Shown here in pieces: positions 29,657-45,931 of a stretch of DNA of 64,000 bases; the stretch's first letter is position 1, and every line of letters begins with the position of its first letter. Made by a program: the position numbers and the translations under genes. Source of the stretch: Edwardsiella piscicida (lineage in GTDB: Bacteria > Pseudomonadota > Gammaproteobacteria > Enterobacterales > Enterobacteriaceae); the NCBI RefSeq assembly GCF_001896205.1, contig NZ_MPNU01000001.1:3245992-3309991 (forward strand), read 5' to 3'. The notes under the pieces were generated by a model. It made no database searches. It was not told the DNA's origin and worked only from the letters and a program-made list of their open reading frames with translations.

Positions 29657-31789
29657 CTACAGGGTGGCGTCGTGGGCCGAGATCCCCAGACGCTGCATGC
29701 GCGAGATCAGCGTCGTGCGCTTCAGCCCCAGGCGAACCGCCGCGCCGCGCGGTCCAGCGACGATGCCGTTGCATTCGCGCAGCACCTGCAGGATACGCTC
29801 TCGCTCGCTCGCCTCCCCCGGCTCCGGCGCCGACGACGCGGACGCCATCGGCGCCGAGATCGGCATACTTCGGTTAGCCAGCGGCGGGGAGAGATGGTAC
29901 TGCAGCTCATCCAGCGGCAGATTCAGCACCGGACCACGGCTCAGGATCACCGCCCGCTCGATAATATTTTCCAGCTCACGCACGTTACCCGGCCAGGGCA
30001 GCTGGCTCAGCATGCGGATGGTCTCCGTGGGAATGCTGTCGATAGTGCGGTTCATCCGCTTGGCTATCTTGCGGGTGAAGAACTTAACCAGCAGCGGGAT
30101 ATCCTCGGGGCGCTCCCGCAGCGGCGGAATAACGATAGGAAAAACGTTGAGCCGGTAGTAGAGATCGCTACGGTACTGGCGATCCTGCACCATCTGCTTC
30201 AGATCGCGGTTGGTGGCGGCGATCAGCCGCACGTCCACCGGGATCACCCGGCTGCCGCCCAGGCGCTCGATCTCGCGCTCCTGCAGCACCCGCAGCAGCT
30301 TGGGCTGCAGCTCCAGCGGGATATCCCCGACCTCGTCCAGAAACAGCGTGCCGTGGTCGGCCAGCTCAAAGCGCCCCATGCGCAGGGCGCTGGCGCCGGT
30401 AAAGGCCCCCTTCTCGTGACCGAACAGATCGCTCTCCAGAAGTCCGCTGGGAATGGCGGCGCAGTTCATCTTGACCATTCGCTTCTGATTACGCAGGCTG
30501 AGGTTATGGATCGCCTGTGCGATCAGCTCCTTACCGGTGCCGGTCTCCCCCAGGATCAGAACGCTGCAGTCGCTGGCCGCCACCATCTCCACCTGCTCCA
30601 GCACGCTGCGCATCGCCTCGCTCTGGCCGACAATCTCGCCAAAGTCGCCCTCCTGGCGGATGCACTCCGTCAGATAGCGGTTCTCATGCACCAGGCTGTC
30701 CTTCAGGCGCGAAATCTCGCCGTAGGCCAGCGCATTATCGACGGCAATGGCGATGCGGGCGGCGATCTGACGCAGCAGCTTCAGGTTGCGCGGATTAAAC
30801 ACTCCCGCCTGGCACTGGGCCAGCTTCAGCACGCCCAGCACCTTATTGCCAAAGATCAGCGGCAGCTGGCAGACGGTACGGTTGCCAAAGCTCAGCATCT
30901 GAGCCAGCTGACGATCCTGCGGCGCCAGGCGGGCGGAATCGGAGAGATCCATCAGCAGCATGGTCTTATCCCGGATCACCCGCTGGGCCAACGAGCCGGC
31001 CAGCGGCAGCAGCTTTTGCTCGCGCAGCACCGCCTTGCCGCTCTGATAGCCGGTGATATAGGACTTAAGGCGCTCGTCACCCTGCTCGATCAGCGACAGC
31101 CCGATGTAGTCGATACCGAAGAAGCGGTGGATCTCCTTGGAGACCTCGGCCGCCAGCGCATCCATCTCCAGCTTGGAGGTCACCGCATTGGTCACGTCCA
31201 CCAAAATACGGAAATGGTCACGCTCGCGGCGCAGCAGCTCCTCCTGCTGCTGGAACTGCTCCCGCTCCAGCAGACGCTCGAAGATCTGCGCCACGATCTC
31301 AGCCAGCGGCGCCGCCAGCGCCAGCTCTCCCTCGCTGAAGGCATCGGCTCGATACTTAATGAACTCAATACCGCCCAGACGCTGTCGCTCCGTGGTCAGC
31401 GGCAGCTGGCAATAGGCCGTAATCCCGGCATAGTGCGGCAGCGCGGCGACGGCGGCGAAGTCAACGCAGAAATCGGCGCCCGAGCAGCAGACCGGGCGCT
31501 GCTCGGTCCAGACTCGCCCGCCGGGGCCATCGGCCAGCAGGACATCGCCGTCCTGGATCACCCGATCCTGCTGCGGATCGTAGCGATACAGGGTGATGCG
31601 GTTATGCAGCGGATCCAAGCGCAGAATATTGACGCGATCGAAGCGGATCGCGGAGAAGGAGAGCTGATGCAGGGCACGCATCAGCTCGGGAAGCGAACGC
31701 TGAGCCAGCAGACTCTGCGTCGCCTGATGCAACAAATCCTGCCAGATCGGCTCCAGGCGCGATAACGAACAGGTTTTCGTGCTCTTCAT
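29657..31789 (-). CDS. fhlA: Formate hydrogenlyase transcriptional activator FhlA
   Basis: Formate-sensing sigma54 enhancer-binding protein that activates hyc, hyp, fdhF and hydN. It has 710 aa from the ATG at 31789 (E. coli 692). GAF-type sensor regions occupy about residues 20-180 and 190-360, ending [21 protein letters not shown]. The AAA+ domain has Walker A GETGTGKE (414-421) and the sigma54 loop GAFTGA (461-466). A C-terminal Fis-type HTH ends [18 protein letters not shown]. The start is uncertain: the frame stays open 61 codons further upstream through a structured GC-rich leader, and no clear Shine-Dalgarno is seen. Confidence 0.93.
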
Positions 31790-33549: not shown

Positions 33550-33569
33550 ATTCATTTATGATATGGAAT
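33550..33569. promoter_or_regulatory. Candidate LysR operator between lysA and lysR
   Basis: Imperfect dyad ATTCAT-N7-ATGGAAT in the divergent spacer, with a T-N11-A-like core typical of LysR-family sites. Low information content. Confidence 0.3.
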
Positions 33570-33610
33570 ACGCCCGTTTCCTGTACCGCCGCGCGTCGCC
33601 GGAGCCCGCC

Positions 33611-34546
33611 ATGCACCGTATTTCCCTGCGTCAGGTCGCCATCTTTCATGCCGTGATGACCAGCGGCAACCTCACCGAGGCCGCCGCGCAGCTGCACACC
33701 TCTCAGCCGACCGTCAGCCGCGAACTGGCCCGCTTTGAGCAGCTGCTGGCGCTAAAGCTGTTCGATCGGGTGCGCGGTCGTCTGCGGCCAACCGCCCAGG
33801 GGCTGCAGCTGTTTGAAGAGGTTCAGCGCGCCTACTACGGTCTTGAGCGTATCGAAGATGCCGCCAGCCAGATCCGCCAGTTTCGTCGGGCCACGCTGGA
33901 TATCGTCTGTCTGCCGGCATTCTCCCAGTCCCTGCTGCCGCAGGTCTGCCGCCGCTTTCTCGCCCGCTATCCGGAGGTCAGCCTGACCATTACCCCGCAG
34001 GAGTCCCCCCTGCTGGAGGAGTGGCTTTCGGCCCAGCGCTACGATCTGGGGCTGACGGAAGAGTGCAGCACGCCGCCGGGCTGCGATCGCCACGCCCTGG
34101 CGACGCTGAATGAGGTCTGCGTACTGCCGGACGATCACCCGCTGCTACGCCATGCCATCCTGACCCCGGCCCACTTTGCGGCGCAGCCCTATATCAGCCT
34201 GTCGACCGGCGATAGCTATCGCCATACCTTGGATGCCCTGTTTCAACGGGCGGGGATCGCACGCCGGATGGTGGCAGAAACCCACAGCGCCGCCGCCGTC
34301 TGCGCGCTGGTGCGCCAGGGAATCGGGCTGTCTATCGTCAATCCTCTGACCGCGCTGGACTTCGCCGGCCGCGGACTGGCGTGGCGCCCCTTCAGCGTAG
34401 CCGTTCCCTTTACCGTCAGCCTGATCCGCCCCCGCCACCGCCCCGGCTCCGCCGCCGTAGAGACCTTTATCGCCTCGCTGCAGGAGGAGATCACGGCCGT
34501 CGCCGAACAGCTGCGCGAGCCCCACGACAACAACGAAAATCATTGA
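33611..34546 (+). CDS. lysR: Transcriptional activator of lysA, LysR
   Basis: LysR-family founding member; activates lysA when DAP is high and lysine is low. The ATG at 33611 (MHRISLRQ) has GGAG 6 nt upstream and gives 311 aa, the E. coli length. HTH: IFHAVMTSGNLTEAAAQLHTSQPTVSRELARFE (residues about 11-43, shown here in parts: IFHAVMTSGN, TSQPTVSREL). The effector domain keeps PQESPLLEEWLSAQR and ETHSAAAVCALVRQGIG. Confidence 0.96.
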   Translation: MHRISLRQVAIFHAVMTSGNLTEAAAQLHTSQPTVSRELARFEQLLALKLFDRVRGRLRPTAQGLQLFEEVQRAYYGLERIEDAASQIRQFRRATLDIVCLPAFSQSLLPQVCRRFLARYPEVSLTITPQESPLLEEWLSAQRYDLGLTEECSTPPGCDRHALATLNEVCVLPDDHPLLRHAILTPAHFAAQPYISLSTGDSYRHTLDALFQRAGIARRMVAETHSAAAVCALVRQGIGLSIVNPLTALDFAGRGLAWRPFSVAVPFTVSLIRPRHRPGSAAVETFIASLQEEITAVAEQLREPHDNNENH

Positions 34547-35000
34547 AAGCAAAAGATCATTTATTGCACAAACAAGCTACACAAACACCTTTCGTTTTAG
34601 TTTTTATAAAACAGAAGGCATGCAATAACATGATTTATCGTTATTTATCTATTAATCACGACGCTTTCGATTGCATGCGTTGCTATTTTCGGTGCGCGAT
34701 GGTCACCCCGACGCCGCGGCGGCTCGCCACGGAAATCCTCCCCCGTAACCATCACGATTTCCGTCTGGTCATCGCGCGGTAACGCCTTTAAAAACCGTAT
34801 GCTACGCGGTAATACCTGTTAAGTACCTCACAGTTTTCTCCGCCCCTCGTCCCCCCTTCACCGCGCCGTAGTGCATTTAGTGTGATCTTGCTTTTATTTC
34901 CATGATTTTCGTTAATTTATGATTTGAGCTGCACAAAAAGTATAAATAAGATGTGTAAAAACCAAACGAAAGAAAACGCAAAAACAAGAAGGGGGGTTTG
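34547..35000 (+). other. lysR-sulfatase intergenic region
   Basis: 454 bp, AT-rich, no supported gene. It presumably carries the promoter of the chondroitin locus. TGTGATCTTGC at 34880-34890 and TATGATTTGAGCTGCACAA near 34918-34936 are weak CRP-like stretches. A strong AAGAAGGGGGG Shine-Dalgarno ends the region. Confidence 0.5.
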
Positions 35001-36566
35001 ATGTCCGTTACTCGCAGGAGCTTTCTGAAAGGATTGGCCGCCGGAGGTGCAGCCATCTCTGCGCCGGCCGCCCTCGCCGCCACGCTGGGGCAGGAGCAGG
35101 GAAAAGGCGCACAGGCCAGACCGGCGGATGCGCCGAATCTGCTGATCGTGTTTCCCGACGAATTCCGCGCCCAGGCGCTGCAGTTTATGGGACAGGACCC
35201 CTCGCTGACGCCGAACTTAAACGCCTTCGCCAAGCAGTCTCGCGTGATGCGCCAGGCCGTGTCCAACTACCCGCTGTGTACGCCGTTTCGCGGCATGCTG
35301 ATGACCGGGCAGTACCCGATCCGCAACGGCATCACCGGCAACGCGCATGACTTTGGCGGCAAGGTCGGGATTGAGCTGTCGCGCTACGCCCAGTGCTGGT
35401 CAGACGTACTGAAAAAGCTGGACTACAGCACCGGCTACATCGGCAAATGGCATCTGGACGCCCCCCAGGCCCCCTTTATTGAAAGCTACAACAACCCGAT
35501 GGAAGGGCGCTACTGGAACGACTGGACCGCCCCGGATCGCCGCCACGGCTTTGACTTCTGGTACTCCTACGGCACCTACGATCTGCATATGCGCCCGATG
35601 TACTGGGGCAATAATACCCCGCGTGAATCGCCGATGTATGTCGATCAGTGGAGCGCCGAACACGAAGCCGATATGGCCATTAAGTTCCTGCGCAATGAGA
35701 AAGGCAGCTTCCGCGCCGCCGACAAGCCGTTCGCGCTGGTGGTGTCCATGAACCCGCCGCACTCCCCCTACGATCAGGTGCCGCAAAAATACCTGGACCG
35801 CTTCCCGGGCAAGAGCTCGCGCGATCTCAACACCCGTCCCAACGTCGACTGGCAGGCCAACTACCAAGAAGGCTATGGCCCGCAGTACTTCAAGGAGTAC
35901 ATGGCGATGGTCAACGGGGTCGATGAACAGTTTGGCCGTATTCTGGCCGAGCTGGACAAGCAGGGGCTGGCGGAGAATACCCTGGTGGTGTTCTTCTCCG
36001 ATCACGGCTGCTGCCTGGGCGCCAACGGTCAGCCGACCAAGAACGTCCCCTATGAAGAGGCGATGCGCATCCCGATGATGTTCCGCCTGCCGGGCAAAAT
36101 TGCCCCGGGCAACGATGACGCGCTGATGTCGGCGCCGGACATCTACCCGACCATCCTCGGTCTGATGGGACTGGAGCAGTGGATCCCCGGCACGGTCGAG
36201 GGCAGCAACCTGGCATCGCGCATCACCCACGGTAAGGGCGAAACGGCCAGCTCTCAGCTATACCTGTTTGTTCCCTACGGCGAGCCCTCTTTCGGCCGCC
36301 GCGGCGTACGCACCACCAGCCACACCCTGGTTATCGATCGCCAAGATGGCCAGCCGCTGAAATACACCCTGTACGATAATGTTAACGATCCCTATCAGAT
36401 GAAGAATATTGCCGCTGGCAATGATGCTCTGATTAAAAAACTCACCGATGAAGAATTAATTCCATGGCTGGAAAAAACCGGTGACTCTTGGCGCCCGGTT
36501 GAATTTACCACCGCCACCACCAATAAACTGAACAAAAAAGTGGCTGAGTGCGCTAAAGCCAGCTAA
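35001..36566 (+). CDS. Tat-exported Cys-type sulfatase of the chondroitin locus
   Basis: Alkaline-phosphatase-superfamily sulfatase, 521 aa. The start is ATG 35001, with a strong Shine-Dalgarno; TTG 34998 is rejected. The N-terminus carries a twin-arginine motif TRRSFLKG followed by an Ala-rich h-region, so export folded via Tat is predicted. The sulfatase signature C-T-P-F-R at C93 means a formylglycine made from Cys; no maturase gene is in this window. Metal-binding motifs: FPDEFR near 50, GKWHLD, and FFSDHGCCLG. Substrate is inferred from context as sulfated chondroitin/dermatan oligosaccharide; sulfate position unknown. Confidence 0.88.
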   Translation: MSVTRRSFLKGLAAGGAAISAPAALAATLGQEQGKGAQARPADAPNLLIVFPDEFRAQALQFMGQDPSLTPNLNAFAKQSRVMRQAVSNYPLCTPFRGMLMTGQYPIRNGITGNAHDFGGKVGIELSRYAQCWSDVLKKLDYSTGYIGKWHLDAPQAPFIESYNNPMEGRYWNDWTAPDRRHGFDFWYSYGTYDLHMRPMYWGNNTPRESPMYVDQWSAEHEADMAIKFLRNEKGSFRAADKPFALVVSMNPPHSPYDQVPQKYLDRFPGKSSRDLNTRPNVDWQANYQEGYGPQYFKEYMAMVNGVDEQFGRILAELDKQGLAENTLVVFFSDHGCCLGANGQPTKNVPYEEAMRIPMMFRLPGKIAPGNDDALMSAPDIYPTILGLMGLEQWIPGTVEGSNLASRITHGKGETASSQLYLFVPYGEPSFGRRGVRTTSHTLVIDRQDGQPLKYTLYDNVNDPYQMKNIAAGNDALIKKLTDEELIPWLEKTGDSWRPVEFTTATTNKLNKKVAECAKAS

Positions 36567-36595
36567 CGCCACGCATCGTACGTATTTACCCGTCC

Positions 36596-36626
36596 CCCTT
36601 ACTGTCGACGCTGTCGACAGTAAGGG
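36596..36626 (+). terminator. Hairpin between sulfatase and porin genes
   Basis: A perfect 14-bp stem (36596-36609 with 36613-36626) with a 3-nt loop. A U tract does not follow directly, so it may attenuate or stabilise RNA rather than stop transcription completely. It lies between sulfatase and porin, which would give the sulfatase separate expression. Confidence 0.5.
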
Positions 36627-36714
36627 CAGCGTTTGGTTTGCGTTCGAAAAATAATCATAACAATACCAGCAAAAGCATTAATTCATCACGGTTGTTATTA
36701 TCGTAAGGAATGCT

Positions 36715-37599
36715 ATGAACAAGCACAATCAATTACTTCTGGGATCGCTTATTGCGCTGTCGCTGACCTCTCTGAGCGCGCAGTCAGCCAATATTAATAC
36801 CATATTTTCTTGGGAAACCGCCGATTATGATACGCCGGCTAACTACTCCGGTTACCGCTTAGATATCAATATTAACCCCACGAAATCCAACTGGTATTTT
36901 GATGCCGGACTACGTCAGCGTGAAGCCGATAATAACAGTCGCTATCAGCGTCTGGATTTGCAGGCTGGCTATCGCTACAAGATCAATAATGGTTGGATCC
37001 AGCCCAGCTTCAAGGTGCGTCAGGACACAACCACGTATGACAACGGCAACCGTATTACCGTTGACTTCTACAGCACCAAGACATCCTATTACTACAACCT
37101 CTCGAACAATTGGGCTCTGGCGGGCAGCGCCATGTTCAGCATGGAGAAGAAAGAGAATCTGGCAAAGGGGCTGACCACCAATACCGACTATCTCTCCTGG
37201 GAGTTAGAGCCTGGCATCCGCTACTTTATCACCCCGAATATCAATACCACCGTCGCCTATTTCCAAAGTGGCAAGCACGCCAATAAGCAAAATGAGTTTG
37301 AGACCCGCGAACTCCAGCGCAACCAGCAGGTGCGTGTTTATCTCAACTGGAATACCCCCATCGGCCTGGTTATCTCGCCATCGACCCGTCAGTCGGTATT
37401 TGGTGAGATCACCGAGCGTAATGCCAAGGGCGACTTTATCAATAAAGACATGTCACGTTATACCCTGCAACTGGCCTATCCGATTAATAATCAGTGGCGC
37501 GTAATGACCGAGTACTATCACGAAAAAATCAAAACAAAAAATAGCGATTTGAAGACCGAATACGACTATTTCAAGGTCGCCGTACGCGCCAGTTTCTAA
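36715..37599 (+). CDS. KdgM/oligosaccharide-specific porin-like outer membrane protein
   Basis: 294 aa with a Sec signal (hydrophobic residues about 8-22, cleavage near AQSA). Alternating aromatic strands (YRLDININ, NWYFDAGLRQR, WELEPGIRYF, VRVYLNW, YFKVAVRASF) and a C-terminal Phe indicate a monomeric beta-barrel of about 12 strands. It resembles the KdgM family of acidic-oligosaccharide porins, so uptake of unsaturated chondroitin oligosaccharides is inferred. The gene is clearly lower in GC than its neighbours, consistent with transfer or relaxed composition. AAGGA precedes the ATG. Confidence 0.75.
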   Translation: MNKHNQLLLGSLIALSLTSLSAQSANINTIFSWETADYDTPANYSGYRLDININPTKSNWYFDAGLRQREADNNSRYQRLDLQAGYRYKINNGWIQPSFKVRQDTTTYDNGNRITVDFYSTKTSYYYNLSNNWALAGSAMFSMEKKENLAKGLTTNTDYLSWELEPGIRYFITPNINTTVAYFQSGKHANKQNEFETRELQRNQQVRVYLNWNTPIGLVISPSTRQSVFGEITERNAKGDFINKDMSRYTLQLAYPINNQWRVMTEYYHEKIKTKNSDLKTEYDYFKVAVRASF

Positions 37600-37634
37600 T
37601 CCACTAATAAGAATGCCAACACCGAGGTTATCAC

Positions 37635-39725
37635 GTGAATAAATATAAGCATCTTTTCCTCTATACCGCTATTGCCTCTGCACTCTACAACACCGCCTGG
37701 GCCGCGGATTGCGATCCTGCCAGCGATATCTGCGATACCATGATCATTGGCGGTGGCGGCGCAACGGTCAATAAAAACATCATCGTCAATACTCCAGATA
37801 CCCCCGCAATGCTGGTTGAAAAAGGCACCACGGTCACCAACAATGTCTATATCAACGGCGTCAACGTTATCAGCAAACAGGGCACCGCTATTCAGGTCGA
37901 TGGAAGTTTCTCCAGCGGGCGTATCTTCAGTGTCAAAGGCGGTGCGACCGTCCAAGGCGGCAATGGCATCGCCATGGACTTCCGTCAGGCAAGCGGTCCG
38001 ATGCGCGCAGATATCGTCGATGGCAGTACCATTATCGGCGATATCTTAGGTAACGGTAACACCGAAAAAGGCAACAAGATCAACTTTGCCCTTAACAACA
38101 GCACCGCCATCTTCAACGGTAACAATATCAGTGGGTTTAATACGGTCGAAAACTGGGGCACGTTGACCATCATCGGGCAAGACAGCACCATCCACTTTGG
38201 CGGAACCTTTGTAAACCAGAAAGGCAGTAATCTGGTCTTTCAGCTCAACGATCGAACCAACCTGGACGAGGCCATCCTGCGGGTCGACAAACTCTCCCTG
38301 CATAAAGATGGCAGTACCGTCAGCATGGGCTACAACGGCAGTCAGATTTCGAACATTATCAATAAAGATATCGTGCTGATCGAAGCCACCGAGGGCATCA
38401 CCAACGCCGACAAAGTCACTATCACCGGCATGGATGGCGCCAAGCTCGACATCTCCCCGCTGCTGACCCAGACCAACTCCTGGATAGAGCCCTCTCCGCC
38501 GCAGATGAACGGCGGCGTCAGCGGCAATCAGCTGATCGTCAACTACGGCGTCAGCTACGGCGGCGCCAGCACCTTTGCGGCCCTGGCTGAGCAGGGTGGC
38601 GCCTCGGCCAACGCACTGCGCACCACCGCCTTTATCGTCCCCAACGTACTGAATGAATTTAACGGTACCCACAGCGCCGCCTCTGATCAGGCGCTGGCGC
38701 TGCTGGTCTCCGCCGGCAGCAACGCCGAAGCCATCGCGACGCTGGCCAACCAGATGACCCCTAACGGCGACGGCAGCGAGATCCGCGCCGCCAACCAGCT
38801 GGTCGGCGACATGCGTAACAATATCGCCCAGCGCCAGCTCGGCTATCTGGGTCAGCTGCCGCTGCAGGAGCGCGACAGCGGCTGGAACCTGTGGGTCAAC
38901 ACCCTGTACGGCCACGGTACCCAGAGCGGCAATGACTATGCCAACGGCTTTCGCATGAACCGCTACGGTATCAGCCTGGGCGCCGATCAGGAGATCGACG
39001 ACAGCGCCATGCTCGGCTTTGCCCTCGGCTATAGCCATAGCCAGGCCGACAGCCGCGGCGTGACCCAGAGTAAACGCATCGATGCGGTCGAGCTGATGCC
39101 CTACCTCGGCTGGCGTAGCGGCATACTGTTCGCCGACGGTAACCTCAACATCGGCTATCTGCGCGTCAACAGCGAGCGTCACATCGGCGGCGACAGCGGC
39201 TGGCAGGGCGAAACCCAGGCCAACGGCGACTATACCGGCATGCAGGCAGGCTACCAGCTCAACGCGGGCCTGAATCTGGAGCTGGGCGCCCTGCACCTGC
39301 GCCCGATGCTCACCTACCAGTACCAGTGGCTCAACTTTGACTCCTGGCGTGAAAATGGCTCCATCCTCTCCCTGAGCAACAGCAGCCAGAAATACAGCCT
39401 GAACCACCTGGGCGGCGGCCTGAGCGCCTGGGCACAGTACGCCACCGGCTGGGGCACGCTGACGCCATCGATGCAGGTCAGCTATCTGCACGATCTCGAC
39501 GGCGATCGCCGCATCCGTCAGCAGCATACGCTGGTCGCCATCACCAACGGCGGCTCGACCTTAGAGACCGTTGGCGCCCGAGTGGGCGGCAATCAGCTGC
39601 GCGTCGATGCCAGCGCGCGCATGGATATCAGCGAGTCGCTCAACCTGGGGATCGGTCTGGGCTATAACCGTGATGACCGCTACGGCGAAGGCGTTATCGG
39701 CCTGACCCTGGGCAATCGTTTCTAA
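37635..39725 (+). CDS. Classical (type Va) autotransporter embedded in the chondroitin locus
   Basis: 696 aa; GTG start with GAGG 7 nt upstream. A signal peptide (YTAIASALYNTAWA) is followed by a passenger of about 320 residues rich in G/N/T/V, with beta-helix-like repeats (TVNKNIIVN, TVTNNVYINGV, TVQGGNGI). A linker helix (about 360-410) leads to a standard C-terminal autotransporter barrel (WNLWVNTLYGHG, GISLGADQEID, VGARVGGNQLRVDASARMDI, ending LGNRF). No protease, esterase or lyase motif is seen in the passenger. The passenger half is lower in GC than the barrel half, suggesting domain exchange. Role in the locus unknown; adhesion to matrix is a guess. Confidence 0.85.
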   Translation: MNKYKHLFLYTAIASALYNTAWAADCDPASDICDTMIIGGGGATVNKNIIVNTPDTPAMLVEKGTTVTNNVYINGVNVISKQGTAIQVDGSFSSGRIFSVKGGATVQGGNGIAMDFRQASGPMRADIVDGSTIIGDILGNGNTEKGNKINFALNNSTAIFNGNNISGFNTVENWGTLTIIGQDSTIHFGGTFVNQKGSNLVFQLNDRTNLDEAILRVDKLSLHKDGSTVSMGYNGSQISNIINKDIVLIEATEGITNADKVTITGMDGAKLDISPLLTQTNSWIEPSPPQMNGGVSGNQLIVNYGVSYGGASTFAALAEQGGASANALRTTAFIVPNVLNEFNGTHSAASDQALALLVSAGSNAEAIATLANQMTPNGDGSEIRAANQLVGDMRNNIAQRQLGYLGQLPLQERDSGWNLWVNTLYGHGTQSGNDYANGFRMNRYGISLGADQEIDDSAMLGFALGYSHSQADSRGVTQSKRIDAVELMPYLGWRSGILFADGNLNIGYLRVNSERHIGGDSGWQGETQANGDYTGMQAGYQLNAGLNLELGALHLRPMLTYQYQWLNFDSWRENGSILSLSNSSQKYSLNHLGGGLSAWAQYATGWGTLTPSMQVSYLHDLDGDRRIRQQHTLVAITNGGSTLETVGARVGGNQLRVDASARMDISESLNLGIGLGYNRDDRYGEGVIGLTLGNRF

Positions 39726-39753
39726 TCGGCGCACTTGGGAAAGGGAATCTACC

Positions 39754-42700
39754 ATGTTATCCATGCATCGCACCCTGCTAGCGGCCGCTATCGCCGCCCT
39801 GCTTCTCAACGCGGCGGCCACGGCGGCCCCGGACGCCAACGCCCGCGATCGCGCCGAAATGATGCGCTCGCAGATCTACAGCTTTGATCAGCCGGAAGAT
39901 CTCCGCGACATCACCACCACGCCCGGCTCGCGCGTCGCCCTGAGCGATAAGCGCGCCATCATGGGGGAACGGGCGCTGGTCTGGGACTGGCAGCGCGGCG
40001 GCAGCCTGCTGCTGCGCCACGCCATGAATATTCCAACGGATGCCCAGGTCTCCAAGATCTGGGGACGGGCCGCCACGCCGGTGCTCTCCTTCTGGATCTA
40101 TAACGAGCATCCCATCGATGATGTCCTGACCGTCGATCTCGGCAATGGCCTGAATGGCACCAATGAGGCCGACGCCGGTACCCAGGTCAAGCTGAACTTC
40201 CGCGGCTGGCGCGCCGTCGGCGTCTCGCTGAACAACGATCTGGCCAACCGGGAGATGAGCGGCGCCGGCGTCCGCAGCGACGAGGACGCGGCGGAGCCCA
40301 GCGTAGGCCGCACCCTCGGCGATCGTATCGACACCCTTCGTCTGCGCGCCCCCAGCGGGGAGAAATCTGGCCGCCTGTTCATTGACCGGGTGATGATCTC
40401 GGTGGATGACGCGCGCTATCAATGGTCCGATTACCACGTCAAAACCCGCTATACCGAGCCGGAGATCCAGTTCCATCGCGCCACGCCGACGCTGGCGATG
40501 ACGCCCGCCAACCAGGCCGGCGTCGAGCTGATCCGCCAGCGCCTGATCGACGAATTCGTCAACGGCCCGCAGGACAGCACCCTGAAAGCCGAAGCGGATC
40601 TGAGCAAACTGCGCGCCGCCTTCGACGCCCTGCAGATCCATCAGGCCGCCGACGGCACCCTTAGCGGCCGTCACCTGATCACCGATAAGCAGAAGATCCT
40701 TTACCAGCCGGAGCACCTGAGCGCGCAGGATAAGGCCAAGTTCGATCGCTATGTCATCCTGGGTGACTACACCACGCTGATGTTCAATATCAGCCACGCC
40801 TATCGTCAAAGCCACGATCCTGCCGTGCAGCGCCAGCTGGCCGATATGTATCTGCTGATGACCCGCCACCTGCTCGACCAGGGCTTCGCCCAGGGCAGCG
40901 GTCTGGTCACCACCCACCACTGGGGCTACAGCGCCCGCTGGTGGTACATCTCGGCGCTGCTGATGAGCCCGGTGCTGGATCAGGCCAAGCTAACGCAGCC
41001 GGTCTACGACGCCCTGCTGTGGTACTCACGCGAATTTAAGGCCAGCTTCGACATGAAGGTCGGGCCCGAGAGCAGCAACCTGGACTACTTCAATACCCTG
41101 TCGCGTCAGCATCTGGCCCTGCTACTGCTGGAGCCCAATCCCCAGCAGCGCATCGATCTGCTGAACAGCTTCAGCCACTATATCAGCGCCGCACTGGCGC
41201 AAACGCCGCCGGGCAGCAATGACGGTCTGCGTCCCGACGGCACCGCCTGGCGCCACGAGGGGAACTACCCGGGCTACTCCTTCCCGGCGTTCAAGAATGC
41301 GGCCCAGCTGGCCTATCTGCTGCGCGGCACCCCCTTCGCCCTGCAGCAGGACGGCCTGGACAAGCTCAAACAGGCCATGGTGGCCGCCTGGATCTACAGC
41401 AACCCGCAGACCGGTATTTCGCTGGCCGGACGCCATCCGTTTAACTCCCCCTCGCTGGAGAGTCTGACCAACGCCTACTACTGGCTGGCCATGTCCTATG
41501 GCAAACGGCCTGACGCCACCCTGGCCGCCATCTACCTACGCCTGGCGAATAAAACGGCGGCGGATGCGAAGACCCTGTTCGGCGAATCGCTTCAACCGGC
41601 GGCGCTGCCGCAGGGGTTCTATGCCTTCAACGGCGGCGCCTTCGGCATTCATCGCTGGCGCGACAAGATGGTGACCCTGAAGGCGTTTAACAGCAACGTC
41701 TGGTCCTCTGAGATCTATCTTAAGGACAACCGCTATGGCCGCTACCAGAGCCACGGCGTCGTCCAGATCGTCTCTCACGGCCCCCAGGAGGAGCAGGGCT
41801 ACCGCCAAGCGGGATGGGACTGGAACCGCATGCCGGGCGCCACCACGCTACACCTGCCGCTGGAGGCACTCAACAGCCCGAATCGTCACACGCTGATGCT
41901 GCGCGGCGAACATCCCTTCAGCGGCACCTCATCGCTGGATAATCGCTACGGCATGCTGGCCTTCGATCTGCGCCCGTCCCGGGAGCAGCCCAGCTTTGAC
42001 CAGGGGCTGAGCGCCCTGAAGAGCGTCCTGGCCGTCGATGACCGACTGATCATGGTCGGCAGCGATCTGAACAGCAGCGATGGTAAACATGCGCTGGAGA
42101 CCACCCTGTTCCAACTGGCCAACTCACCGGGACGCGACAGCGCCATCTGGGTCAACGGTCAGCGCATCGACGCGGCCGCCTGGCAGGGCAGCCTGCAGAA
42201 CGGCGACTGGCTGATCGACGCCGATGGCAACGGCTACCTGCTGGTGCAGGGGCCGACGGCAGAGGTACGCCGCCAGCTGCAGCGCTCCGCCGACAATAAG
42301 AACATGGCCCCGACAGAGGGGGAGTTCAGCGTCGCTTGGCTCAATCACGGTACGGCGGTCAAGAACGGCGCCTATCAGTATCTGGTGGTGCTCGACGCCA
42401 CGCCGCAGCGCATGCGCGATCTGGCTCAGCAGCTGAAGCAGGGGAATGCCCCCTTCACGGTCCTCCGTAGCCAAGACGGCGTACACGTGATCCGCGACAA
42501 CGCCAGCCAGGTCACCGGCTATGTCTTTTACCGGACGCCAACCCTGAAGGAGGGCCCGGTGATCGGCGTCAACCGCCCGGCCATCGTGATGACCCGACCA
42601 CAGGACGGCGGCCTGGTGCTCAGCGCCGTGACGCCGGATCTGAACATGACGCGCCAGAAGGCGGCTAAGCCGGTCACCATCGAGGTCACCCTGCGGGGAC

Positions 42701-42822
42701 GCTGGCAGCCTGCCGCCCCGGTCGACGGGATCGCCTGCGCCGCGCGCGGCGACGAAACCCGCCTGCGGTTCAGCATCGACTTCGGCATTCCACAGCAGAT
42801 TGCGCTGAAAAAAATGCCTTAA
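39754..42822 (+). CDS. Chondroitin sulfate ABC endolyase (ABC lyase I type)
   Basis: Eliminative lyase (PL8) that cleaves chondroitin and dermatan sulfate to unsaturated oligosaccharides. It has 1022 aa (Proteus vulgaris enzyme 1021). Catalytic residues fall at the same numbers as in Proteus: H501 and Y508 (RHEGNYPGY), R560 (AGRHPFNS), E653 (WSSEIYLKDNRYGRY). The N-terminal carbohydrate-binding-like domain (SFWIYNEHPIDD, GWRAVGVSLNNDLANREM), toroid middle domain and C-terminal sandwich (DLNMTRQKAAKPVTIEV) are intact. Sec signal at residues 1-25. AAAGGGAA precedes the ATG. GC matches the chromosome. Confidence 0.96.
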   Translation: MLSMHRTLLAAAIAALLLNAAATAAPDANARDRAEMMRSQIYSFDQPEDLRDITTTPGSRVALSDKRAIMGERALVWDWQRGGSLLLRHAMNIPTDAQVSKIWGRAATPVLSFWIYNEHPIDDVLTVDLGNGLNGTNEADAGTQVKLNFRGWRAVGVSLNNDLANREMSGAGVRSDEDAAEPSVGRTLGDRIDTLRLRAPSGEKSGRLFIDRVMISVDDARYQWSDYHVKTRYTEPEIQFHRATPTLAMTPANQAGVELIRQRLIDEFVNGPQDSTLKAEADLSKLRAAFDALQIHQAADGTLSGRHLITDKQKILYQPEHLSAQDKAKFDRYVILGDYTTLMFNISHAYRQSHDPAVQRQLADMYLLMTRHLLDQGFAQGSGLVTTHHWGYSARWWYISALLMSPVLDQAKLTQPVYDALLWYSREFKASFDMKVGPESSNLDYFNTLSRQHLALLLLEPNPQQRIDLLNSFSHYISAALAQTPPGSNDGLRPDGTAWRHEGNYPGYSFPAFKNAAQLAYLLRGTPFALQQDGLDKLKQAMVAAWIYSNPQTGISLAGRHPFNSPSLESLTNAYYWLAMSYGKRPDATLAAIYLRLANKTAADAKTLFGESLQPAALPQGFYAFNGGAFGIHRWRDKMVTLKAFNSNVWSSEIYLKDNRYGRYQSHGVVQIVSHGPQEEQGYRQAGWDWNRMPGATTLHLPLEALNSPNRHTLMLRGEHPFSGTSSLDNRYGMLAFDLRPSREQPSFDQGLSALKSVLAVDDRLIMVGSDLNSSDGKHALETTLFQLANSPGRDSAIWVNGQRIDAAAWQGSLQNGDWLIDADGNGYLLVQGPTAEVRRQLQRSADNKNMAPTEGEFSVAWLNHGTAVKNGAYQYLVVLDATPQRMRDLAQQLKQGNAPFTVLRSQDGVHVIRDNASQVTGYVFYRTPTLKEGPVIGVNRPAIVMTRPQDGGLVLSAVTPDLNMTRQKAAKPVTIEVTLRGRWQPAAPVDGIACAARGDETRLRFSIDFGIPQQIALKKMP

Positions 42823-42883
42823 CCGGATCGCGGACGGGGCTTCCCGTCCGCTCCGCCCACGTTTGATTACGGGATACCTGCCC

Positions 42884-45800
42884 ATGCACAACCATCACGG
42901 CATCAATACCCTCACGCTGGGGCTGCTGACCTGTCTGTCGGCTCCCCTTTACGCCGCCCTGCCCTCGGTCAGCCAGGAGCCGGGCGCCGGCCACGTCTAC
43001 CTGTTTGAACAGACGCTGCCGACGTCGATCTCCACCCATAATGCCACGCTACGCATCAGCGATCTGCGCGCCAAAGATGGACAGCATGCGCTGCAGTGGC
43101 ACTATCAGCCCGGCGCCACCCTGACCGTGAAGACCCCGATCCGCTACCGCGACGCCGCCGACAGCGCGACCCCGCTGACCTTTATGGTCTGGGTGTACAA
43201 CGCGCGGCCCGTGAACGATGCGCTCACCTTCCGCTTTGGCCAAGGCGAACGCAGCGACGCCCACTTTCAGGCCAGCCTCAACTTTCAGGGCTGGCGTGGC
43301 ATCGCCGTTCCCTACCGCGATATGCAGGGCACGCCGAGCGCCTCGATGGACCGTCTGACCATCACCGCGCCGGCGCAGGCCGGCACGCTCTATTTTGATC
43401 AGCTGATGCCGGCGGTACCGGTGGATAACCGCTGGCCGCTCCCCGACTACACGACGCCGTTTGCCAATCGCGCGGTCAACGACATGGTCAGCAAAAACTG
43501 GAGTGCGCTGCTGATGTATGACGAGATGCTGCGTCAGCGCTTCCCCACCCTGAACTTCGATGTCGCCTTCAGCGACAGCAGCGGCCCAAGCGCCTCGCTG
43601 TACCGTCGCTTCGACGACTACCAGGGGATCCGCAGCGACAGCCGCGTCACCCCCGAACAGGTCGAACAGAACCTTGAGGCCTACCGCCGCCTGGGCATCC
43701 GTACGCTGGCGGACGGCACCCTCGGCGGAACGCCGCTCGACCACCCAAACCGTCAACACTTTATGAAGGTGAAGGGGGTCTTCACCCCGCAGACCGTCGA
43801 TGCCCTCACCGCGGGAAATCCCATTCGCGACGTCGGCAAAACGCTGCTGCAAAGCGCGCGCTACCTGCGCAGCGACAGCCTGACGGCACAGCAGCGCGAC
43901 GCGCTGCAGCGCCAGTTCCTGGATACCACCCGCTATGTGCTCGATCAGGGCTTCGCCCGCGGCAGCGGCTACCAGATCATCACCCACGTCGGCTATCAGA
44001 CCCGAGAGCTGTTCGACGCCTGGTTTATTCAGCGCAACCTGCTGGCCCAGCACCACCTGTTGGCGCCGACGCAGCAGGCCATGATGTGGTACAACGCCAC
44101 CGGGCGCATCTTTGAGCCTGAGGCCGACATTGTGGATGCCAATGTGGACATCCTCAACACCCAACTGCAGTGGATGGTGAAGAGCATTCTGATGCTGCCG
44201 GATCCCGCCCAGCGCGACGCGCTGCTGGCCCAGACCCGCCAGTGGCTGGCGAAAACCGTCTTGAGCTCCAAGGGGGTCGGCGGCGGCTTTAAGCCCGATG
44301 GCGCTATCTTCCATCACTCTCAGCACTACCCGGCCTACGCTAAAGACGCCTTCGGCGGGCTGGCGCCGACGGTCTACGCCATGAGCGGTTCGCCTTTCCG
44401 CCTGCCGACGGACGCGCACCAGCGGCTGAAAGAGGTGCTGCTCAAAATGCGCATCTACACCAAAGAGACCCAGATCCCGCTGACCCTAAGCGGTCGACAC
44501 CCCACCGGCCTGCACAGCATTACCATTGCGCCATTTAAGTGGATGGCGCTGGCCGGCACCCCGGACGGCAGCCAGTCGGTCGATCCGGAGCTGGCCGCCG
44601 CCTATGCCCGCCTGGCCGGAGAGACACAGTTCGCCGCGATCGCCGCCGAGGCCGAGCCCAGCGGCGCCTGGGCGATGAACTATGCGGCAATGGCCATACA
44701 GCGCCGCGCAGGGCAGCAGAACGACGGACGCTCCTGGCTGGCCATCACCCGCGGCTTCAGCCGCTATCTGGTGGGTAACGAAAGCTATGAGAAGAACAAC
44801 CGCTATGGCCGCTACCTACAGTATGGCCAGCTGGAGATCATCCCGGCCGATAAGGCACAACAGGGATTCCGCCACGCGGGCTGGGACTGGAACCGCTATC
44901 CGGGCACCACGACGGTGATCCTGCCCTATCCCCAGCTCAAGGCACAGCTGAACCAACTGCCGGGGGCGGGTATTGAAGAGATGCTGCTGTCGACGGAAAG
45001 CTACGTCGGCGCCAACGCCCTGGACGGCAACAGCATGTTTGCGATGAAGCTGCACGGCCACAGCAAGTATGGGCAGGAGAGTCTGCGCGCGAATAAATCT
45101 TACTTCCTGTTCGATAATCGCGTGATCGCCCTGGGCTCCGGCATCAGCAACAGCGACCGCCAGCACCCGACGGAGACCACCCTGTTCCAGTTTGCCGTTC
45201 CGCAGCAGCAGCCGATCGGCGTCAACGGAGAGCAAATCAATCAGCCGGACAGCCTGCGGACGCTGCAGGGCGCGGCCCATCTGGTCGATCCGGCGGGTAA
45301 CAGCTACTGGCTGCCGGCGGGTCAGCAGGTGCGGGTCAGCTACCGCCAGCAGCACTCTCTCGACGATCGCAACGATGCGCCGACGCAGGGGCTGTTTGCC
45401 GTTGCCAGCCTGCTGCATGGCAGCGCACCGCAGCAGCAGGGGTATGAGTATGCCATCGCCATCGATGACCCCGGCACCCAGGCACCCGCTTACCGGGTTC
45501 TGCAAAAGGACGACACGCTGCACGCCGTCCGTGACCAGAACAGCGGACAGGAGGGCTACGCCTTCTTCCGCGCCGCCCAGCGTCAGGGCGACGGTCTGCT
45601 GCTCGCCGCCGACGCGCCGCTGATGGCCATGCTGGCGCCGCGCGAAGACACCCTGCGCCTGAGCATCGTCAACCCGGACCTGGCGCTGTATCAGGGGGAA
45701 GATCCCGAGCAGCGCGACGCCGACGGTAAACAGAAAGAGGTGAGCATCTACTCCCGCCCCTGGCGCAGCAGTGAGCCGGCGCCCCAGCACGCACAGCTGA

Positions 45801-45931
45801 CGCTGAAAGGCCACTGGCAGCTGGCGCAGCCGATCCACGGTGCCAGCCTGATCCGACAGGGCGATAATACCCTGCTGCGCGTCACCACCCGCGCCGCGCA
45901 GCCGCTGGTGCTCACGCTCAACCGCGGCTAA
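42884..45931 (+). CDS. Chondroitin sulfate ABC exolyase (ABC lyase II type)
   Basis: Exolytic partner that trims oligosaccharides to disaccharides. The ATG at 42884 (MHNHHG) is preferred over TTG 42863; 1015 aa (Proteus ABC II 1013). Catalytic residues correspond to H478 and Y485 (HHSQHYPAY), Arg in SGRHPTGLH and Glu in GNESYEKNNRYGRY. Long stretches match the Proteus enzyme as recalled (VDANVDILNTQLQWM, HVGYQTRELFDAWF, RANKSYFLFDNRVIALGSGI). It is 61 bp after lyase I, so cotranscribed, and it is a paralogue of its neighbour, not a recent copy. Confidence 0.96.
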   Translation: MHNHHGINTLTLGLLTCLSAPLYAALPSVSQEPGAGHVYLFEQTLPTSISTHNATLRISDLRAKDGQHALQWHYQPGATLTVKTPIRYRDAADSATPLTFMVWVYNARPVNDALTFRFGQGERSDAHFQASLNFQGWRGIAVPYRDMQGTPSASMDRLTITAPAQAGTLYFDQLMPAVPVDNRWPLPDYTTPFANRAVNDMVSKNWSALLMYDEMLRQRFPTLNFDVAFSDSSGPSASLYRRFDDYQGIRSDSRVTPEQVEQNLEAYRRLGIRTLADGTLGGTPLDHPNRQHFMKVKGVFTPQTVDALTAGNPIRDVGKTLLQSARYLRSDSLTAQQRDALQRQFLDTTRYVLDQGFARGSGYQIITHVGYQTRELFDAWFIQRNLLAQHHLLAPTQQAMMWYNATGRIFEPEADIVDANVDILNTQLQWMVKSILMLPDPAQRDALLAQTRQWLAKTVLSSKGVGGGFKPDGAIFHHSQHYPAYAKDAFGGLAPTVYAMSGSPFRLPTDAHQRLKEVLLKMRIYTKETQIPLTLSGRHPTGLHSITIAPFKWMALAGTPDGSQSVDPELAAAYARLAGETQFAAIAAEAEPSGAWAMNYAAMAIQRRAGQQNDGRSWLAITRGFSRYLVGNESYEKNNRYGRYLQYGQLEIIPADKAQQGFRHAGWDWNRYPGTTTVILPYPQLKAQLNQLPGAGIEEMLLSTESYVGANALDGNSMFAMKLHGHSKYGQESLRANKSYFLFDNRVIALGSGISNSDRQHPTETTLFQFAVPQQQPIGVNGEQINQPDSLRTLQGAAHLVDPAGNSYWLPAGQQVRVSYRQQHSLDDRNDAPTQGLFAVASLLHGSAPQQQGYEYAIAIDDPGTQAPAYRVLQKDDTLHAVRDQNSGQEGYAFFRAAQRQGDGLLLAADAPLMAMLAPREDTLRLSIVNPDLALYQGEDPEQRDADGKQKEVSIYSRPWRSSEPAPQHAQLTLKGHWQLAQPIHGASLIRQGDNTLLRVTTRAAQPLVLTLNRG

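Follow-up and report, generated by a model that had tools for sequence, protein, structure and literature searches.

The window, a 64,000-nucleotide stretch of Edwardsiella piscicida DNA (contig NZ_MPNU01000001.1, positions 3,245,992 to 3,309,991), contains five complete genes that are all encoded on the forward strand between positions 35001 and 45931, as was stated in the first-pass annotation and is borne out by the ORF list and by Pfam. From 5' to 3' these encode a sulfatase (35001-36566, +; the ORF opens at 34998/35001 and its ATG lies at 35001), an OmpG-family outer-membrane porin of 294 aa (36715-37599, +), a type Va autotransporter (AT) of 696 aa (37635-39725, +) and two PL8 chondroitin sulfate ABC lyases of 1022 aa each, namely lyase I, a predicted endolyase (39754-42822, +), and lyase II, a predicted exolyase (42863-45931, +). 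The genes of this cassette are separated by gaps of 148, 35, 28 and 40 bp, and the DNA between positions 31001 and 48000 shares 94% identity with E. anguillarum and ~92% with E. ictaluri.

The five gene products

The sulfatase had been described as a Tat-exported Cys-type enzyme, which agrees with its matches to PF00884 (Sulfatase) and TAT_signal (23.1 bits, cut-off 22.7) and with CTPFR at residue 94, a C-x-P-x-R motif; maturase genes of both the anSME and the FGE type are present in the genome. Its best solved relative is 6j66 (790 bits, the next reaching 423 bits), with which it shares 341 of 504 aligned residues (68%) and which is the chondroitin/dermatan sulfate 4-O-endosulfatase endoVB4SF (PMC6581707). 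Among the 14 pocket residues named in the accessible text of that paper, 13 are identical, the 14th being the catalytic Cys, which the cassette sulfatase has where the deposited chain shows A. Five of the six rim residues for hexasaccharide binding are kept, and the sixth, K458, is replaced by Q (PMC6581707). It is hence predicted to be a chondroitin/dermatan sulfate 4-O-sulfatase. Because exoPB4SF, a Photobacterium enzyme, is 83% identical to endoVB4SF yet strictly exolytic according to the same text (PMC6581707), the endo or exo mode of the cassette sulfatase is unreadable from its sequence.

The porin had been called KdgM-like, an identity that is refuted, as it matches PF16946 (Porin_OmpG_1_2, 39.3 bits, cut-off 23) as well as OMP_b-brl, while PF06178 (KdgM) gives no match up to E 0.001. 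Its relatives in Moellerella and Salmonella carry the name OmpG porin. KdgM and NanC are outer-membrane porins for acidic sugars, and although the cassette porin belongs to a different family from these, a KdgM-family gene is present in the second locus discussed below. A PHROGs scan of the porin and the AT returned nothing.

In its predicted model, the AT consists of a signal peptide, a β-solenoid passenger (residues ~28-306), a helical segment (311-406) and a C-terminal barrel (417-696), and the earlier assignment to type Va stands on PF03797 (Autotransporter), the model and the fold matches of the barrel, with the signal peptide judged by eye. The passenger is modelled as a generic β-solenoid without a Foldseek match below E 0.001, and it is acidic in 17/17 aligned sequences (net charge -6 to -26), which disfavors binding of chondroitin sulfate by simple charge. 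The AT is also the least conserved of the five proteins, with 44-46% identity between Edwardsiella and Proteus vs 59-78% for the others, and 68% in E. hoshinae vs 83-94% for the other four. Both its divergence and its acidic, generic passenger would suit a general host adhesin that travels with the lyases and whose passenger binds a host protein or other bacteria, outside of any glycan pathway. In three Edwardsiella tarda records (P0016-P0018) the AT is 466-511 aa long with the barrel present, compared to 696 aa in the window, and these may represent shortened passengers or misplaced starts.

Both lyases carry the complete set of PL8 domains (Lyase_N, Lyase_catalyt, Lyase_8 and Lyase_8_C), in agreement with their earlier description as full-length ABC lyases. 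Lyase I aligns to the solved Proteus chondroitinase ABC I (1hn0 and 7eip) over residues 8-1022 (1393-1396 bits), and its domain order, together with H501, Y508, R560 and E653 at the Proteus positions and numbered as first proposed, leads to its prediction as a PL8 chondroitin sulfate ABC endolyase. Lyase II has H485, Y492 and R545 at a spacing like that of lyase I, shares 60-63% identity with the second lyase of Proteus and has 2q1f as its best solved relative. The signal peptides of both appear Sec-like by eye. Lipobox-type N-termini occur in the lyases of two distant genomes, G275 (L032:2265-5366) and G217 (L055:7548-10616), and are absent in the window and in Proteus mirabilis H63; lyase anchoring may thus differ between lineages.

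Conservation of the cassette and of its upstream region

By scanning species genomes for the AT, 13 loci were gathered, three from Edwardsiella and ten from Proteus, in which the AT is present by construction. In 13/13 of these the genes are arranged on one strand as sulfatase, porin, AT, lyase I and lyase II, and because order and strand are identical throughout, the five-gene block goes beyond chance. The surroundings differ: lysA-lysR and lpxP flank the cassette in 3/3 Edwardsiella loci, so that both order and flanks are kept among these three, whereas neither has a match >60 bits within the fetched flanks of the 10 Proteus loci (L019 and L020 end shortly past lyase II, which affects the comparison for lpxP only). 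The flanks named in the first-pass annotation are therefore correct for Edwardsiella and do not form part of the locus as such. Since the gene order is kept in all 13 loci despite the differing flanks, the porin and the AT belong to the unit, and the cassette is read as a putative transferable operon. The LysR gene at 33563-34546 was considered as a regulator of the cassette and rejected, as it diverges from lysA, has a match to PRK11013 and finds no counterpart >60 bits in the fetched flanks of 10/10 Proteus loci.

The same observations weigh against the AT being a general adhesin, as 13/13 loci combine it with the sulfatase, the porin and the lyases, only 35 and 28 bp separate it from its neighbors, and a 36% AT relative lies between the porin and lyase I in the distant genome G275. 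Despite the divergence of the AT, we regard the adhesin reading as rather unlikely and tentatively favor a role of the AT in chondroitin/dermatan sulfate utilization.

Upstream of the sulfatase, a promoter/operator region is predicted at 34878-34985 (+), in which the blocks TGTGATC, TTTCGTT, AAAAGTATAAATAAGAT and CGAAAGnAAACG are identical in 14/14 aligned upstream regions (the window and the 13 loci); AAAAGTATAAATAAGAT spans 17 bases and precedes the sulfatase in every one of them. This footprint, common to both genera, and the gene order in 13/13 loci support the earlier proposal of a single chondroitin/dermatan sulfate unit with the porin and the AT among its members. A sigma-70 scan found no site within 34878-34985, and a simple terminator scan found no + strand site in the gap between sulfatase and porin; a weak terminator-like site lies at 39700 (+), at the 3' end of the AT gene. 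Terminator-like sites are overall rarer than in shuffles (7 vs 11.2), and promoter-like sites in a simple scan are likewise no commoner than in shuffles. A CRP-like site is not proposed, as the best candidate (15/22 at 34878) was equalled in 9/500 mononucleotide shuffles and only one of its half-sites is conserved.

The hexamer CTTTCG occurs three times in 34547-35000 vs 0.39 expected, with one of the three occurrences inside the 34878-34985 footprint. The word and the regions were chosen after inspection of the promoters and expectations come from first-order resampling, under which CTTTCG is found 22 times vs 5.32 expected over 21 regulatory regions of Edwardsiella, Proteus and Vibrio, and 17 times vs 4.8 over 19 regions when the two cassette promoters are left out; in the second locus of Edwardsiella its excess is not significant (4 vs 1.95 expected, eight regions, p 0.13). 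The longer operator pattern CTTTCGTTTNNTTT, picked after both promoters had been inspected, has three exact matches in the genome, one in the anSME promoter, one in the cassette promoter and one within an ORF whose translation suggests an MFS transporter. With up to one mismatch it is unspecific, having 12 matches genome-wide vs 23 for a reversed control. We take the CTTTCG/CTTTCGTTTNNTTT pattern to resemble the AgaR operator, and control of both loci by AgaR, which is encoded beside the second locus, is a lead that these sequence patterns provide.

Import and breakdown genes and relatives in other genomes

The absence of a transporter and of an unsaturated glucuronyl hydrolase from the cassette had led to the suggestion that the catabolic half must be elsewhere or absent. 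It is elsewhere, ~400 kb away in the same genome, and its absence is ruled out by GH88, PTS, NagA and other families. A genome check for the hydrolase, a PTS and sulfatase maturases, which had been recommended, found GH88, an Aga-type PTS, anSME and FGE. Only one gene in the genome scores over the cut-off for GH88, and its neighbors are anSME and a sulfatase, of which the genome has six. The surrounding 20 kb (L023) encode PTS IIB, IIC, IID and IIA, a NagA-type deacetylase, GH88, anSME and the sulfatase, together with a DUF2264 protein, a KdgM-family porin, a methyl-accepting chemotaxis protein and a LysR regulator. In NCBIfam, NagA, AgaF, AgaW and GalNAc IIB are over the cut-off in this second locus, as are KbaZ and AgaR beside it, while an AgaS-family protein falls just below and IID well below. 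KduI lies at a third genomic site and FGE at a fourth, while the four-part PTS and GH88 are together in the second locus. Specificity of the second sulfatase for 6-O-sulfate finds no support in its sequence, because its best solved relatives are of carrageenan and S1-19 type, and a GalNAc-6-sulfatase ranks 11 among the 60 matches listed. Methyl-accepting chemotaxis proteins are found in or next to the chondroitin loci of three genomes (L023:3450-5117, L024:6984-8792 and L032:3-1829), a recurrence that suggests chemotaxis towards the sugar.

GH88 and the AT are both found in 5/5 Edwardsiella genomes, including that of the window, and in the three of these that have both on one contig the distances between them are ~410, 520 and 400 kb. 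In Edwardsiella genome G396 (contig C26) the GH88 match contains one in-frame TGA, which may precede the true start, as the query had an over-long N-terminus. In P. mirabilis H63, both halves occur in one stretch, and after a gap of 1.4 kb the cassette is followed by GH88, KduD, KduI, NagA, PTS, AgaS, AgaR, anSME, a sulfatase and DUF2264; in three further Proteus loci inspected among the ten, lyase II is again followed by GH88. The H63 gap between lyase II and GH88 (L026:20704-22033) contains three direct copies at a spacing of 515 bases, the later two being 96% and 90% identical to the first over the 300 nt compared. Two P. mirabilis records of ~4.1 Mb that are filed as plasmids (NZ_OL790811.1 and NZ_OL790812.1) look like chromosomes by their size. 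For P. mirabilis HI4320, poor growth of a ptsH mutant on chondroitin sulfate C, which was not a predicted PTS substrate, is reported in the available text (PMC13289894), and the Aga-type PTS of the chondroitin island may explain this phenotype, with the proviso that the island was read in another strain, H63.

These genes also bear on the view that the cassette is a spreading factor, by which cartilage would be loosened and the sugar little used. In the text available from two papers, chondroitinase of Edwardsiella has been discussed as a virulence factor and as the agent behind lesions of fish cartilage (PMC2764856, PMC8714846), which speaks for tissue damage; however, the genome also keeps a set of import and catabolic genes, GH88 is retained throughout the five Edwardsiella genomes, and the two halves are contiguous in H63. 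Tissue damage in place of feeding is thus judged quite improbable, while feeding and spreading can both be true.

Beyond these genera, the same catabolic genes are found in plasmid islands of Vibrio, with 2-4 lyases in the stretches examined. The islands of V. navarrensis (L024, NZ_CP065219.1 14251-53139, on a plasmid typed as conjugative) and V. cidicii (L027, CP035920.1 35000-84000) contain four lyases, sulfatases, anSME, GH88 and a PTS, with KduI/KduD annotated in V. navarrensis. None of the three Vibrio plasmid islands has a match to the cassette porin, and those of V. navarrensis and V. cidicii encode a bare barrel beside a lyase. Relatives of the porin and the AT stand side by side in the distant genomes G275 and G021, and in G021 a barrel of 397 aa without a passenger adjoins relatives of the porin and the sulfatase (57%), with no lyase I match in that genome. 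Such barrels would fit an AT whose barrel does most of the work, either as an additional channel in the outer membrane or as a platform that displays partner enzymes, and whose passenger is optional, and the G021 barrel does group with the cassette ATs in the tree. That grouping has 90/96 support, below the starred level, the bare barrel of V. navarrensis (410 aa) falls outside the cassette AT clade, and the passenger is present in the window AT, in 13/13 cassette loci and in G275, so that a role mainly of the barrel seems improbable.

The chondroitin island of G217 has KdgM and no match to the cassette porin, nor is there an AT match in the 16 of its 18.6 kb that were examined; a right-handed β-helix protein of 380 aa lies there between two lyases (L055:6341-7480). 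Comparison by hhalign revealed no kinship of this protein with the AT passenger, nor of the AT with the β-helix protein in L033. Secreted-looking β-helix proteins of a DUF4955/pectate-lyase-like type (L033:4992-6713 and L056:6632-8434) are neighbors of the group of porin, AT and sulfatase in G021 and of a PL8 lyase in G275, and DUF4955 may be an enzyme for sulfated glycans.

A proposed route and its relation to known systems

We propose, with a probability of roughly 0.6, that the cassette kept in Edwardsiella and Proteus is the outer-envelope arm of chondroitin/dermatan sulfate utilization, for which the predicted import and breakdown genes lie ~400 kb away in the E. piscicida genome. In this scheme, the surface-displayed AT passenger would keep polymer of the matrix, or partner proteins, close to the cell, which is the least certain step, and chains or oligosaccharides would enter through the OmpG-type porin. 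After removal of 4-O-sulfate by the Tat-type sulfatase and cleavage of the chains into unsaturated disaccharides by lyases I and II, the second sulfatase would remove remaining sulfate, perhaps 6-O. The Aga-type PTS would then import the sugar and the cytoplasmic GH88 would split it, the amino sugar passing to NagA, AgaS and KbaZ and the uronate to KduI. Both sulfatases would be matured by anSME or FGE, and AgaR may repress both loci.

Chondroitinase ABC of Proteus is a standard laboratory enzyme. In P. vulgaris and P. mirabilis the lyases ABC I and II are adjacent and in the same order, with ~60% identity to the Edwardsiella pair, and the parts of the Proteus literature that were available name the lyases only and do not discuss the sulfatase, porin and AT next to them. 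According to one such text, lyase activity of P. vulgaris is induced by chondroitin sulfate and repressed by glucose (PMC9067506). In the glycosaminoglycan clusters of streptococci, unsaturated disaccharides are described as being imported by a PTS (PMC6837340). The second locus of Edwardsiella likewise combines GH88 with a four-part PTS, and it differs from these clusters in the porin and AT, the Aga-type PTS, AgaR, the anSME/sulfatase pair and a separate KduI. Polysaccharide utilization loci (PULs) for chondroitin sulfate in Bacteroides comprise linked genes for lyases, sulfatases and GH88, all of which Edwardsiella has as well. The outer-membrane step is a different one, as the PULs use SusC/SusD in the source text available, in place of which Edwardsiella would employ an OmpG-type porin together with an AT. 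A bolder version, which we hold to be rather unlikely in its entirety, would make the OmpG porin and the dedicated AT a gammaproteobacterial counterpart of SusC/SusD that catches polymer for periplasmic endosulfatase and lyases, within a transferable cassette whose catabolic half is contiguous in Proteus and distant in Edwardsiella and shares an AgaR-type operator with it.

A search of the open-access literature for porins and ATs in glycosaminoglycan loci returned nothing on this AT or porin among the matches listed. The enzymes are of known kinds, and the new part is the conserved porin-AT pair as the predicted outer-membrane step for chondroitin. In the portions of the literature that were found, the delivery of polymer to the enzymes and the use of the products have not been worked out for these bacteria. 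With a fixed five-gene block that includes a porin and an AT, and with the PTS/GH88 half located, the whole route is open to gene-deletion tests.
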